Source: Alviniconcha marisindica (Eukaryota; Mollusca; Gastropoda; Provannidae). Taken from it: 64,000 bases of DNA. The notes beneath the pieces were generated by a model that saw nothing but the letters and a program-made list of their open reading frames with translations, searched no databases and was not told the origin of the DNA. The DNA lies in the NCBI GenBank assembly GCA_018857735.1, contig JABMCL010001864.1, positions 107,501 to 171,500 of the forward strand, written 5' to 3'. Within the stretch, counting starts at the first letter, position 1, and every line of letters begins with the position of its first letter. The position numbers were made by a program, and so were the translations under genes. Shown piece by piece: positions 50,801 to 56,800 of this stretch.

Positions 50801-53800
50801 ATCGCTTGCTGCCACCAAATCCTTTAGTCTGTGTTCTACCCCAGTACTGAACCAAAATTTGGGATCTGTTGACATAACACAATCAAGATCAAGGCCAGGA
50901 AAGGCTCTTTCAAGTGTGTGGCCCGAAAGTTGTACATCGGATGCTTTTTTGGTCCTCATTCAAACCAGATCAGGTTAAAAGATAGTGTGTGACATTTCTT
51001 TGATCTGGGATGTTGAGCCCTTATTTGATAACGTTTGATAAACTTCATGTCTGTTTAAGTTGTGGTCTTTGCAATTTCTTTCCCATCTGTTTGACTTTAG
51101 TATTCATCAAGGACTGATTTATAATTCATGGATGGATGGATGCATTCATTCATTCATTGTTTGATTCAGGGATTGATTCTTTGATGGGTTCATTGACAAA
51201 AATGATCTCTCTTTTTCTCTCTCGCTCTCTCTCATTCATTATTTGATTCAGGGATTGATTCATTGATGGGTTCATTGACAGAAATGATCTCTCTTTTCTC
51301 CGTCTGTCTGTCTGTCTCTCTCTCATTCATTATTTGATTCAAGGATTGATTCATTGATGGGTTCATTGACAGAAATGATCTTTATGGGTACATTCACAGA
51401 AATGATCTCTATGGGTACATTCACAGAATTGATCTCTATGGGTACTTTCACAGAAGTGATCTCTATGGGTACATTCACAGAAGTGATCTCTATGGGTACA
51501 TTCACAGAAGTGATCTCTGTCTGTCATTCTCTTTGTGGGGTCTCCAGCTTTGCTGTGGTCAGTTAAAGTGTGAGTGTGATTTCAGTGGCCTTAGGAAGCT
51601 GCGGGGCAAGAGGAGTTTCATCCTCTCCAGATCAACCTTTGTTAGCTCCGGTTACTATGGTGCACATTGGACAGGAGACAACAGGTCAGGCTGGTCTGAC
51701 CTCTACTACTCCATCCCAAGTATGTAAAAATGCCCTGGCAAAATTCTGTACAGAGTCCACCTGTGAAAAAGAGGCTGTGGCCCACTTTTGATATGACTAC
51801 ATGATCTAGCATTCACCAAATAGATTTTGTGTCACATGCTATGCCACAGGGTTGTGCAGTGATTGATGGAAATGTGATTGTAGGTAACTATTGTCACTGA
51901 ATGATAGACACTAGTGATGTAGAAACCACAACATTGGTGGCATTATTATTACCCTGTTATAGCTAGGATGAAAGAACTAAAGCTGTTAAATCATCAATTG
52001 TGAGAAGAATGCCTATTAATTATATAATACATGATTTTCATTGGCTGTTAATGGCATGTGTCAGATCAGAATCAGATGAGAATAGAGCAAGTTTGAAAAC
52101 TGCATTACGCAATCAGACGCCTGACAGTGACATCACAATCTGTTGTTTCCCATAGCTACTGATTGTACATCATGTAGTCACATGACCATGACCTAAGTGG
52201 GTCACAGCCTTTAGGCTGCTTATAGTTTGACTGTTTGAGCTGACTTTCCTCAAGAAAAGTGACCTGGAGTTTCCATAGCAACAATTCCCATTTGGTATCT
52301 TAAAGTATACCAGATATAACTAAATACAATGGCACTTGCCTGTGAGTTCTGTGTGTACTTTCTTTATCTTGGTTTAGTACACCTTTTATTTGGTTTAAAC
52401 AAACTTTATTTCATATGTAACATTACATTAACAACAGAACATTTGGGCCATGCAACAAGCAAGATTACTTATGAGATTTGTTATTTGTTTGGTGTTCATT
52501 CCATAGAACCCTTTTATGACAGAGAGCCCCTTTAAAATGAAGTTTTCTTTGAGTTGATGTGATTGAGGTATGTTCCAAATTCTGTTCTCTTTTTTTCTGT
52601 TCTGTCTCCTAATATTTTTGTTCGTGTTTTTGTAGGGGGTGAGGGGGGGGGGGGGGGGGGTGAGAAGTAATTTGTTGATGGTCCTAGCCCTTTCTTCTGA
52701 AGAAGGTTCTGTGACAGAGTGTTTTAAATATTTCTTCTGTCCATGAACTGATGACTGTGTCCAGTAAATACCATAGCATTTATAAACTTTCATTTCCCAT
52801 TTCTGTTTGGATCCATTGTTCATATTCTAGCCATTTATGTTTCAGCACACAAGGTGATGATGTCATTTTATCATTTTATGTAATCCCTCACAACGTTTCT
52901 TGTTTTGATACACAAGGTCAAGACACTATGTTGCCAGTTTGTCTGTGTGTTTTTGTCCTATGATCAGTTTGTGATCTCAGTCTGCTTCCATTGGTTTGTT
53001 CAGCATTGTACAAGTTATCTACAGTGATTTGATCCTGTCTTGTGTATGTTCAAAAATGATACTCTTCATACAGTTAAACCTGTGATGAAAAGACCACACA
53101 TGAGAGACCACCTGTTTTGACCTGTTTTGCCAGTGATACAGTATGAAACATGTACTGTGTAGCCTTTGTTGAGGATAGCTGAAACAAGCAGCCTTTGTTG
53201 AAAAAGTGGACTGAATCAGTTTGTTTTTGGCTTTTGTGAACAGGCATTTTGAATTTCAACATGTTTGGGGTGCCGCTGGTTGGAGCAGATGTATGTGGCT
53301 TTGGGGGGGATGAAAACCGTGAGCTTTGCATTCGCTGGATACAGCTTGGTGCTTTCTACCCTTTCATGAGAAATCATGATGCCTTACACAGCAAGGTAAC
53401 ACAGCGTTGCTCTGTTTCACCAAGGCTCAAGTTAGAGTTCAAGGAGAAGGAGGAAGTGGGGGGGGGGGGGGGGGGGGGGTTTTGTTTCGTTCTTGTTTTG
53501 TTTATGTTCCTGTTTTGTTTGTTGACTCTTTCCTTTGTTGCTTTTGACTTGTTTGTTGTACTTGCGAGTGTTTACTGAGTTTGACTGCTGCTGAGATCAG
53601 CAGCACATCTGGGGACACCAAGCTCATGGTCTGAATCAGTACTACATGTAATCAAATCAAGAGTGATCTGCAACAGAGGAAGAATCACTATTATTCCTGA
53701 CACCTTATTGACCTTACTGCATACAGCACAGTTGTAACCCATCCTGTCAGTTTCCAGAAGATTTTGACACAAGATGGTTTTGTATTTGGGTTTGTCTTAT

Positions 53801-56800
53801 TTCAATCACAGTATGGTCTAGTGTTGTTGTTTTTGGTTTCACTGAAGCAGAAATCTGGCCTCAACAGAAGGATGTTGTAAGACTTTATTTATAACTTTTC
53901 TGGCCTAGGAACCGGCTAAAACCGTACTGAACATTTGCCAAAACATCATATTAGAACAGGTCAGCCTGAATCTGTAAGCTTTGCCATCACTGCAAGATTA
54001 ATAAGATGCCTGTCATAGTTTATGAGCTCCTGGGACCTGAGATGTTTGGGATATGATAGTTTCTTTTGGTGTGTGTCGAACTTGTTGATTTCATTTTGAG
54101 CGTTATCTGTACAACATCAGTTGTAAAGTAAAACAGTTTAAGAAGACCTTTTTGGAGGCCTCAAAAATCAGATTTTGACTTGCTTCTTGTGCTGTTGGGA
54201 TACGTGATGGTGAAGAAATTTTACTGCTTGGTTACACTTCTTCTACCGTACAGATGGATACTGCAAGGGTTTTCTTGTTCCAAATTGTTTTCAAGGAAAG
54301 CTGCAGTGCTTTGATCGGTGTTTTGACAGCAAATACATGTGTTCACGTTTTGCGTTGGGGACTGCCATGGACTTTTAGGTGTCTCATACATTCCCACCTC
54401 CTCAGGTTGCTGTCCTTGACCTTGGTCAAGACATGACATCATCACATGGTTGCTTCTTTTTTTTTGTCCAACACCTTCCCTCTTAGTTTTTTTCTTTTCT
54501 TTCTGTAGGCATATTGAAACTCAACTTATTTGGAGTGGTGTCAGTTGGTGCTGATGTGTGTGGCGTTGGTGGAGACACAACTCGGGAACTGTGTATTCGC
54601 TGGACGCAGCTAGGGGCTTTCTATCCCTTCATGAGAAATCATAATGGACACACGGTAAACTAAAATCGATTAATGCAAGATAAACTATCTCCTGAAGCCT
54701 GCAGCTTTCTACACAGGTCTGACGAAGGCTCTCTGCCGACCTTCCCTGCAGTGCCCATTCCACCAGAGGTTCGTTCCTTCCTCTCTAGATCATCTTCTCT
54801 CTCTTTTGGGGATCTCCTCTCTCTCCCACCCCACTGCTTCAGTAGTACCCTTCACGCTGCACAGTGTGGGATATTATGAAGTAAATAGACACAAATCCTA
54901 ATGGTGGTGGGTATTTTCTTGTTTTTGCTTCTCTCCCTCTAACCAGGCTATGCATGAAGGTTTTGTTGTTGTTGTAAACTCAGGAAAGCCAGCAGTCTAC
55001 ATGCAACAAAAATCCTCTCAAGCAACCAACAGCAGCTGAAGCTTCTGCACATATTTAATGCTAATCCTTCCTTGTTCACACAGTTTCATTTGTATGCCAG
55101 TCCTCATCTCAGTTCTGGCTAAACAAGACGATCATGCGATAACCACCTATCTAGAGTAAGCACTTAATGTGCGGCAATGGAAATTAAATGCAGATGTCTG
55201 CATAATGTGAAACAGAACTTTGTGCAAACTCAGCTTTCATAATGTGCATTCTATTGGCTCTGATATCATTGTCAGTCTTTCTTCAGGAGTGATTCTCATA
55301 GCCATCTTAAATTCTGGTACTGATTTGGTGGGCATCTGACAATTCTGCGTGTCTGGAGGACTGTTTTAGGGTCATAGGCAAGATAGTTGGTTTAGTGCTT
55401 GTGTCCTGTGTGCCAGTTGAAGTCTTCCATCCCTTCTTGAAAAATTGAGACAGGGAAACAGAAGCAAAAACTTATATTTCATAGGCGTCTGGAGTTCTAG
55501 CCATCTGAAGTAAAGTGACTTACCTGAGATGTGTATACCTTTTATAGCGGACTGTTAGCATGATGCTCATGGAGGATTTGGGGTGAATGATGCGACTGAA
55601 TTTTGATCCCTTTGTGAGAAATTATTAGGACTTGCTTGACAACAAGGTATAAAATGTGACTGGAGGGTTTTTATTGTACAGAGCTGAAAATACATTCTTT
55701 TTCACAAATGCAAGGAAATGTATCCTGGCTGTTATGCAAACTTGGTGTTGCTCCTTATGTTGTGATTTTCCTGACTGTGGTAATCCTTTTGCAAGTTAGG
55801 ACAGGCACAGTTCTTCAGGGTCCTGTCACTCATCTCTCTTGGCTTGTTTTCCTGTGTGTATTGTGGTTGGCAGTATTCTCTCTCCAGACTCGGAGCAGTG
55901 AAGATGCAGTTGCTAGCCATGACTGCATCATCAGCCTGTTTTCAAACACAGCTTTCATTGCATGGTACCGGTGTATAACTTGCAGGTTTTGTGTGGCATG
56001 TGGTGACTTGAACATGTTTGGAGCAGCAGCAGTGTCAGTTTGAGTACATGTTTAGTGTACATGTGTTAAAGAAGAAAACTGGTGAGCTTGATGCACATGC
56101 AGTTGCTGGCTGTGACTGCATCATCAGTCTGATTTCAAACACAGCTTTCATTGCATGGTACCAGTAAAACTTGCAGGTTTTGTGTGGCATCTGGTGACCT
56201 GAACATATTTGGGGCAGCAACAGTGTCAGTTTGCGCTGGTTTGTTGTTGTTTGGTGTACACATGTTAAAGACAAGAAAACTGGTGAGCTTGACACGCATG
56301 CAAACTGCTGCATTTTGACTCATTGTGAGTCAGCAAACTAGACTGGTGTCATCTGTTCCACAGGCATCTTGAATTCCAATCTGTTTGGAATTCCCATGGT
56401 CGGAGCAGATGTGTGTGGCTTTTTGACAGACACTACTCGTGAGCTGTGTATTCGATGGATACAACTGGGTTCCTTCTACCCCTTCATGAGGAATCATGCA
56501 GATTTGGGTACTAAGGTAACAACAACAAAAATCTTCTGAAAAGGTTTTTTTTTCCCCATTGTTGGGCGTTTAGTCAAAATAACATGCAACCATCCATCAT
56601 TACAATGCAGACATTCACTCACTCATTCACACTTCTTTTTCATGTCTCTCATAACAATTTCATTTTCATACAAGGCACATACTCATCACTTACAAATCCA
56701 TGTGTTTCCCCAACCTGCATCCATTCATAAAAAATATAAAAAATTGTTTAACCAAAAAGTAGTGATAAGAAAAGAAAAAAAAGCTGTGCATACAAAACCT

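Follow-up and report, generated by a model that had tools for sequence, protein, structure and literature searches.

Does one α-glucosidase gene carry three interchangeable versions of an exon that lines its own substrate pocket? The question arises from a 64,000-nucleotide stretch of the gastropod Alviniconcha marisindica (contig JABMCL010001864.1, positions 107,501 to 171,500; hereafter the window, in whose numbering all positions are given), where a glycoside hydrolase family 31 (GH31) gene of the acid α-glucosidase (GAA) type contains three successive copies of its exon 12. We think that these copies probably constitute a tandem array of three exons of the mutually exclusive type, from which one copy would be used per mRNA, in an α-glucosidase of the GAA type from a caenogastropod. 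All three lie on the plus strand: exon 12A at positions 53244 to 53395 (152 nt), exon 12B at 54509 to 54654 (146 nt, two codons shorter), and exon 12C at 56364 to 56515 (152 nt). A base-by-base check confirmed the coordinates, lengths, splice sites, and phases (entered in phase 1, left in phase 0) given for them in a preliminary description of the locus, and all three frames are open. Every donor is GT and every acceptor is AG, and inspection by eye of the borders of the three copies revealed no minor-spliceosome motifs.

The reading frame constrains how the copies can be combined. Any two copies joined together put the product out of frame, as had been claimed. The frame is lost as well, which that claim did not cover, when all three copies are joined (450 nt) or exon 12 is skipped entirely. 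In all 4 joint combinations, a stop is reached at codon 3 of the following copy, at a distance from the downstream junction that would suffice for nonsense-mediated decay (NMD) by the usual rule. The frames of the joint and skipped products and the positions of these stops support the earlier argument that the frame would permit only one copy per mRNA. Several features of mutually exclusive exons are present: adjacent homologous exons, similar lengths, the same phases, intact splice sites, and combinations that break the frame. Such frame disruption is common, not universal, in mutually exclusive clusters. In the most likely splicing scheme, a single exon 12 copy (12A, 12B, or 12C) would link exon 11 to exon 13 in each pre-mRNA. 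Transcripts that include two copies, three copies, or none would be frameshifted with an early stop and should go to NMD, so that the frame itself would act as a filter; frames and stops are observed, and decay is what we infer from them.

When repeats were sought without reference to protein sequence, 12A, 12B, and 12C emerged as one direct-repeat family of 140 nt in which 12B and 12C are each 76% identical to 12A, so their likeness is not due to chance. Could the array instead reflect an assembly artefact or collapsed tandem genes? Misassembly can create exon duplicates, and one assembly was examined, but the copies differ at 24 to 30% of their bases and the repeat search found no long repeat family common to their introns; they are therefore neither alleles nor duplicates at the level of reads. 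When the 817.6-Mb assembly was searched at the DNA level (40 of 120 candidates scored), the array was matched only by the window itself. On these grounds we consider an artefact extremely improbable. The other 39 scored matches comprised 1 paralogue exon and 38 copies, on other contigs, of a dispersed repeat of ~100 bp (56544 to 56650) that lies just downstream of 12C. No exon 12 array was seen in the stretches read of the GH31 loci C435, C1325, C1531, C2010, and C2618.

The gene that hosts the array is complete and spans positions 38239 to 63537 of the plus strand. Its model was built manually, guided by splice borders and similarity, and was compared with Pfam and with Protein Data Bank (PDB) entries. 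It has 19 coding exons with one exon 12 in use (exon 19 at 63472 to 63537) and is open throughout, with a single terminal stop, whichever copy is included; the predicted isoforms have 974 (12A), 972 (12B), and 974 (12C) amino acids. Isoform B scored over the cut-off for PF00088, PF13802, PF01055, and PF21365, in the order P-type trefoil, GH31 N-terminal domain, TIM barrel, and C-terminal domain, and a putative N-terminal membrane anchor was judged by eye. Isoform A aligned with lysosomal α-glucosidase (PDB 9gsv) over residues 107 to 957 (E value of 7.5e-258). On the model and this alignment, exon 9 (49291 to 49378, plus strand) carries the DMNEISNF motif, whose Asp (human D518) we take to be the catalytic nucleophile, and exon 11 (51586 to 51719, plus strand), which ends in phase 1, carries HWTGDN, whose Asp (human D616) is presumably the acid/base. 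The constant exon 13 (58450 to 58598, plus strand) follows the array and is entered in phase 0. With the GH31 domains and trefoil, the catalytic Asp pair, and the −1 subsite residues in place (apart from F649 in 12B), this is a GAA-type GH31 gene. The closest proteins over residues 380 to 880, among the best 120 of 2444 matches in the full-protein search (7991 scored), came from Littorina saxatilis (78%), Nucella lapillus (77%), and Babylonia areolata (77%); all three are Caenogastropoda, and Nucella and Babylonia are Neogastropoda.

What would an exchange of exon 12 change in the enzyme? In the alignment with lysosomal α-glucosidase, the exon spans approximately human GAA residues 630 to 680. 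Counting on the 9gsv alignment placed D645, F649, L650, R672, and H674 within it and gave Phe-Gly (12A), Val-Gly (12B), and Phe-Leu (12C) at 649-650, both as first described. D645, R672, and H674 are kept in all three copies, the first two being what we take to be disease positions in human GAA; F649 is lost in 12B only. The copies (in the order A, B, C) read FGG, VGG, and FLT at 649 to 651 and PL, VS, and PM at 640-641, and further differences lie at position 666, at several other residues, and in the loop that follows H674. Human GAA has been solved with the inhibitor 1-deoxynojirimycin (DNJ), which H674 hydrogen bonds and F649 touches (PMC5653652), and a docking paper places D645, F649 to N652, R672, and H674 to S679 in the pocket (PMC10460020). 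The contact of F649 with the ligand (PMC5653652) supports the view that the exon contributes to the wall of the −1 subsite. The exon encodes a segment of the barrel, and swapping it would be expected to keep the catalytic-site residues and to alter that wall and the nearby loop (649 to 651, 640-641, and 666).

How unusual these residues are was judged from 229 motif instances in 218 of 235 proteins, taken from the matches listed in the full-protein search and in a search ranked by 12B (best 120 of 136 matches, 141 candidates). Position 649 was F in 223 instances and Y in 3, the other three being single cases of T, H, and L; Val was absent from all 229. Position 650 is naturally variable (L in 59, G in 53, R in 26, and F in 24), so Phe-Gly in 12A versus Phe-Leu in 12C is, judged by sequence, ordinary variation. 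Only 12B alters a near-invariant pocket residue (F649V), which amounts to a real pocket change. The earlier interpretation is therefore supported in part: a single gene that makes three enzymes, each with its own pocket, is a possibility.

Could 12A and 12C be the true alternatives and 12B a regulatory or nonproductive exon that yields an inactive enzyme or lowers output? F649 is changed in 12B alone, to the Val seen in 0 of 229 instances. We also compared 21 columns, each at least 90% conserved in 115 distinct homologue rows (the distinct ones kept of 166 regions in 235 proteins). At these columns 12A shows no departure, 12B two (F634L and F649V), and 12C one (F634S); 83 of the 115 homologues have none. 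Three residues of 12B occur in none of the 115 rows, and at least three such private residues are found in just 2 of those rows. Exon 12B also has Val-Ser in place of the usual Pro-Leu pair at 640-641. Never-seen residues occur in 12A and 12C as well (two and one, respectively, relative to the 115 rows), which counts against the array reading. Against a nonproductive 12B, D645, R672, and H674 are intact in it, and its acceptor has a pyrimidine fraction of 0.95, the richest of 19 measured; intact residues and the strongest pyrimidine acceptor suggest an exon built to be spliced, which could act on another substrate. We rate a nonproductive 12B as less likely than the mutually exclusive-type array.

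Sequence divergence between the copies speaks to whether all three are maintained. Over 45 codons, the proportions of synonymous (pS) and nonsynonymous (pN) differences were 0.63 to 0.65 and 0.13 to 0.19, dN/dS was 0.10 (A-B), 0.11 (A-C), and 0.14 (B-C), and pN/pS reached at least 1 in 0 of 500 bootstraps for each pair. The copies have diverged under coding constraint. When they were compared only with one another, the private changes of all three showed a silent excess (replacement:silent, 3:8 in A, P = 0.0008; 8:10 in B, P = 0.008; 9:9 in C, P = 0.02). Two results pull the other way. With exon 12 of a minus-strand paralogue (see below) as a fourth sequence, the private changes of 12B became 7:2, and the silent excess of 12A lost significance (3:3); C (4:7) alone remained significant. 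The 7:2 ratio fits neutrality, and 12B may be decaying or specialised. We read this, with small numbers, as long-standing constraint on A and C and a B that is now relaxed or changed. On this reading 12A and 12C would be working alternatives and 12B either specialised or decaying.

The same data bear on a starker explanation, in which one copy (12A or 12C) is used and the remaining two are ancient duplicates, seldom if ever spliced, that are heading for decay. It would accommodate the 7:2 ratio in 12B, along with its F649V change, its Val-Ser for Pro-Leu, and its loss of two codons. It would also accommodate possible dead copies in the 12B-12C intron, where an nhmmer profile (A, B, and C plus a near-empty fourth row) gave matches with E values of 0.048 to 2.9. 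The best window match outside the four exons, at 55602 to 55649 (plus strand; E value of 0.048, weak), may be what is left, after decay, of the 3′ part of another copy, with an in-frame stop by eye. A second possible remnant, of the 5′ part, lies at 56006 to 56109 (plus strand; E value of 0.34, weak) in a locally duplicated stretch (local duplications D3 to D5) that holds another match at 56187 to 56224 (E value of 2.9), and a further weak plus-strand match lies at 55417 to 55445 (E value of 0.44). Three of the four best matches outside the exons fall in this intron; the fourth is on the minus strand, downstream of 12C. In local exon-to-intron alignment, no score exceeded the maximum of the shuffles and one matched it, so the remnants come from the profile search and remain weak. 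If 55602 to 55649 and 56006 to 56109 are dead copies, the array may have turned over. Against a single working copy stand the high synonymous and low replacement divergence, including a dN/dS of 0.11 between A and C and of 0.10 and 0.14 against B, and the intact borders and frames of all three, whereas random mutation at the same divergence, even with no indels, left all three stop-free in only 17% of 20,000 trials. We regard the use of one copy as unlikely and continue to favor the array of alternatives.

Is the array peculiar to this species? We compared exons pairwise across 188 of 235 proteins (those of 700 to 1100 amino acids) for 14 exons. Exon 12 is the best conserved of the 14 in homologue pairs (mean of +0.18 over the rest of the protein) and fell below the rest in just 15 out of 17,357 pairs; among the 15,198 pairs in which the identity of the rest was 0.40 to 0.75, this happened in none. 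The orthologues depart from this pattern: identity in exon 12 and in the rest was 0.71 and 0.84 for Nucella-Babylonia, 0.73 and 0.75 for Nucella-Littorina, and 0.80 and 0.76 for Babylonia-Littorina, and the window copies compared with these three gave 0.71 to 0.80 and 0.79 to 0.80. All these pairs lie at percentiles 0.000 to 0.007 for exon 12, with z-scores of −3.0 to −7.3 among the three orthologues and −4.0 to −7.1 against the window copies, while none of the other exons falls under −2.1. In a control, Littorina-Nucella in the neighbouring paralogue was normal (exon 12, 0.84; rest, 0.71; percentile, 0.71). A second, partial Nucella gene (P0004) compared with Nucella 1 gave z-scores of −7.4 for exon 12, −3.1 for exon 10, and −4.6 for exon 11.

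The trees conflict in the same place. In the rest-of-protein tree, the window gene groups with Littorina and the neogastropods (100) and the two Nucella genes are sisters (86); in the exon 12 tree, Babylonia joins Nucella 2 (94/94, just below a star), apart from Nucella 1, and A, B, and C are left unjoined. The simplest account of the anomalous divergence and the tree conflict is that multiple copies are shared and that the annotated proteins show different ones. These comparisons, which are indirect, suggest that several exon 12 copies are an older trait common to the Littorina and neogastropod orthologues, so that copy multiplicity would probably be older than the species. In database names, the Babylonia and Littorina orthologues are labeled isoform X2 and X3 (names only). 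The alternative is fast evolution of a single exon 12 in the orthologues. Several points weigh against shared multiplicity: the baseline pairs are not independent, which makes the z-scores and percentiles descriptive; P0004 paired normally with Babylonia and Littorina (exon 12 z-scores of −1.2 and −1.1); a single origin of A, B, and C within the species was not rejected (approximately unbiased test, P = 0.15); and the exon 12 tree was built on 51 columns and has one starred branch. As a separate observation, the two Nucella genes (P0001 and P0004) are 98% identical in exon 13 and 65 to 71% identical in exon 12, and their identity in exons 10 and 11 is likewise reduced, a pattern that looks like conversion or exon exchange.

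How might one copy be chosen? Windows of intron 11 and of the 12C-13 intron were scanned against all other cluster introns for docking and selector sequences. Complementarity was no better than in shuffles, in a low-power scan of 30-nt windows every 24 nt: the best pairings were −22.2 and −25.0 kcal/mol, against shuffled means of −23.4 (n = 12) and −23.8 (n = 13) and minima of −25.7 and −26.8. The AG-free zones upstream of 12A, 12B, and 12C measure 20 to 22 nt, within the range of other exons (9 to 69 nt), and so give no sign of a distant branch point. We favor a choice made by ordinary splice-site competition, trans-acting factors, and the NMD filter over a docking/selector structure. Like the pairing scan, the protein searches count against the array, since the gene's own product was not among the best 120 matches listed in each of three of them. 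The best matches listed, from other animals or unnamed, reached 78% over residues 380 to 880, at most 81% when the query had 55 residues, and 76% in short segments. Among the best 120 of 201 matches in the fragment search (258 candidates), the top full-length match was 58%, 63 to 76% was reached over shorter stretches only, and no gastropod name was found, most matches being unnamed.

A fuller proposal would be that the gene is a three-state α-glucosidase that predates the split of Littorina, the neogastropods, and this species, whose pocket exons, Val649 of 12B included, confer a tissue-specific substrate range or response to pH or inhibitors. We offer this only tentatively, as a chain of steps that is doubtful when taken as a whole.

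The paralogous GH31 gene used for comparison has a single exon 12 of 152 nt on the minus strand of the window (16610 to 16761; coordinates counted by hand), which the profile of the three copies also detects. Human D645 and R672 correspond in it to Asn and Trp, respectively; the 115 homologue rows have D at 645 in 112 cases and R at 672 in all 115, and the Littorina (P0047) and Nucella (P0059) relatives of the paralogue retain both. The paralogue may encode a pseudoenzyme or may be dying. At silent sites, 12B is nearer to it (pS of 0.42) than to either of the other copies, 12A and 12C (0.65); conversion between the two genes, or descent of one exon from the other, might have left this trace. 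A broken reverse-transcriptase-like frame of a non-LTR (long terminal repeat) element was seen by eye inside the minus-strand gene (~18100 to 19500).

The substrate range of GH31 enzymes is usually attributed to gene duplication, as in maltase-glucoamylase and sucrase-isomaltase. The exon array, if true, would place such diversity inside one gene and would provide a natural set of enzymes matched in everything except one segment of the pocket. The disagreement among annotated snail orthologues, which is concentrated in exon 12 and could mislead phylogenies and gene models, would then also be accounted for. Human GAA (PDB 9gsv, 5nn3, and others) resembles the window gene in domain order, catalytic motifs, and trefoil, with a match over almost the entire protein; as protein records, these entries are silent on exon copies. 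In the literature, the novelty suggested in the preliminary description holds in part: titles and abstract beginnings of open-licence PMC papers yielded no GH31 or other glycosidase case, but exons that remodel an active site are already known. We know of no exon 12 array in human GAA. Duplicated exons that swap a functional core are established as a kind by COQ-2, ACSL1/6, oyster AOX, and snail NALCN, and CYP4F3 and PKM are further parallels.

Exons 6a and 6e of COQ-2 in helminths, annelids, and molluscs are mutually exclusive, remodel the active-site core, and change the product; a Phe near the substrate is switched, to Leu in COQ-2 and to Val in 12B (PMC7434440). COQ-2 differs in being no glycosidase and in having two copies, with RNA-Seq and an exon deletion in C. 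elegans behind them (PMC7434440). In human ACSL1 and ACSL6, a mutually exclusive pair exchanges one aromatic residue (Phe/Tyr) at the fatty acid/substrate gate; unlike the present gene, these acyl-CoA synthetases have two copies, and forms with neither exon exist (PMC1543647). Oyster alternative oxidase (AOX), also from a mollusc, has exon 10 duplicated in tandem; one copy is conserved, and the other bears new residues close to functional sites. These exons differ in being terminal, in numbering two, and in having demonstrated expression (PMC5589949). Exons 15a and 15b of snail NALCN likewise are alternative duplicated exons that swap a functional core in a gastropod; there the core is the selectivity filter of an ion channel, and the copies are two (PMC3557258).

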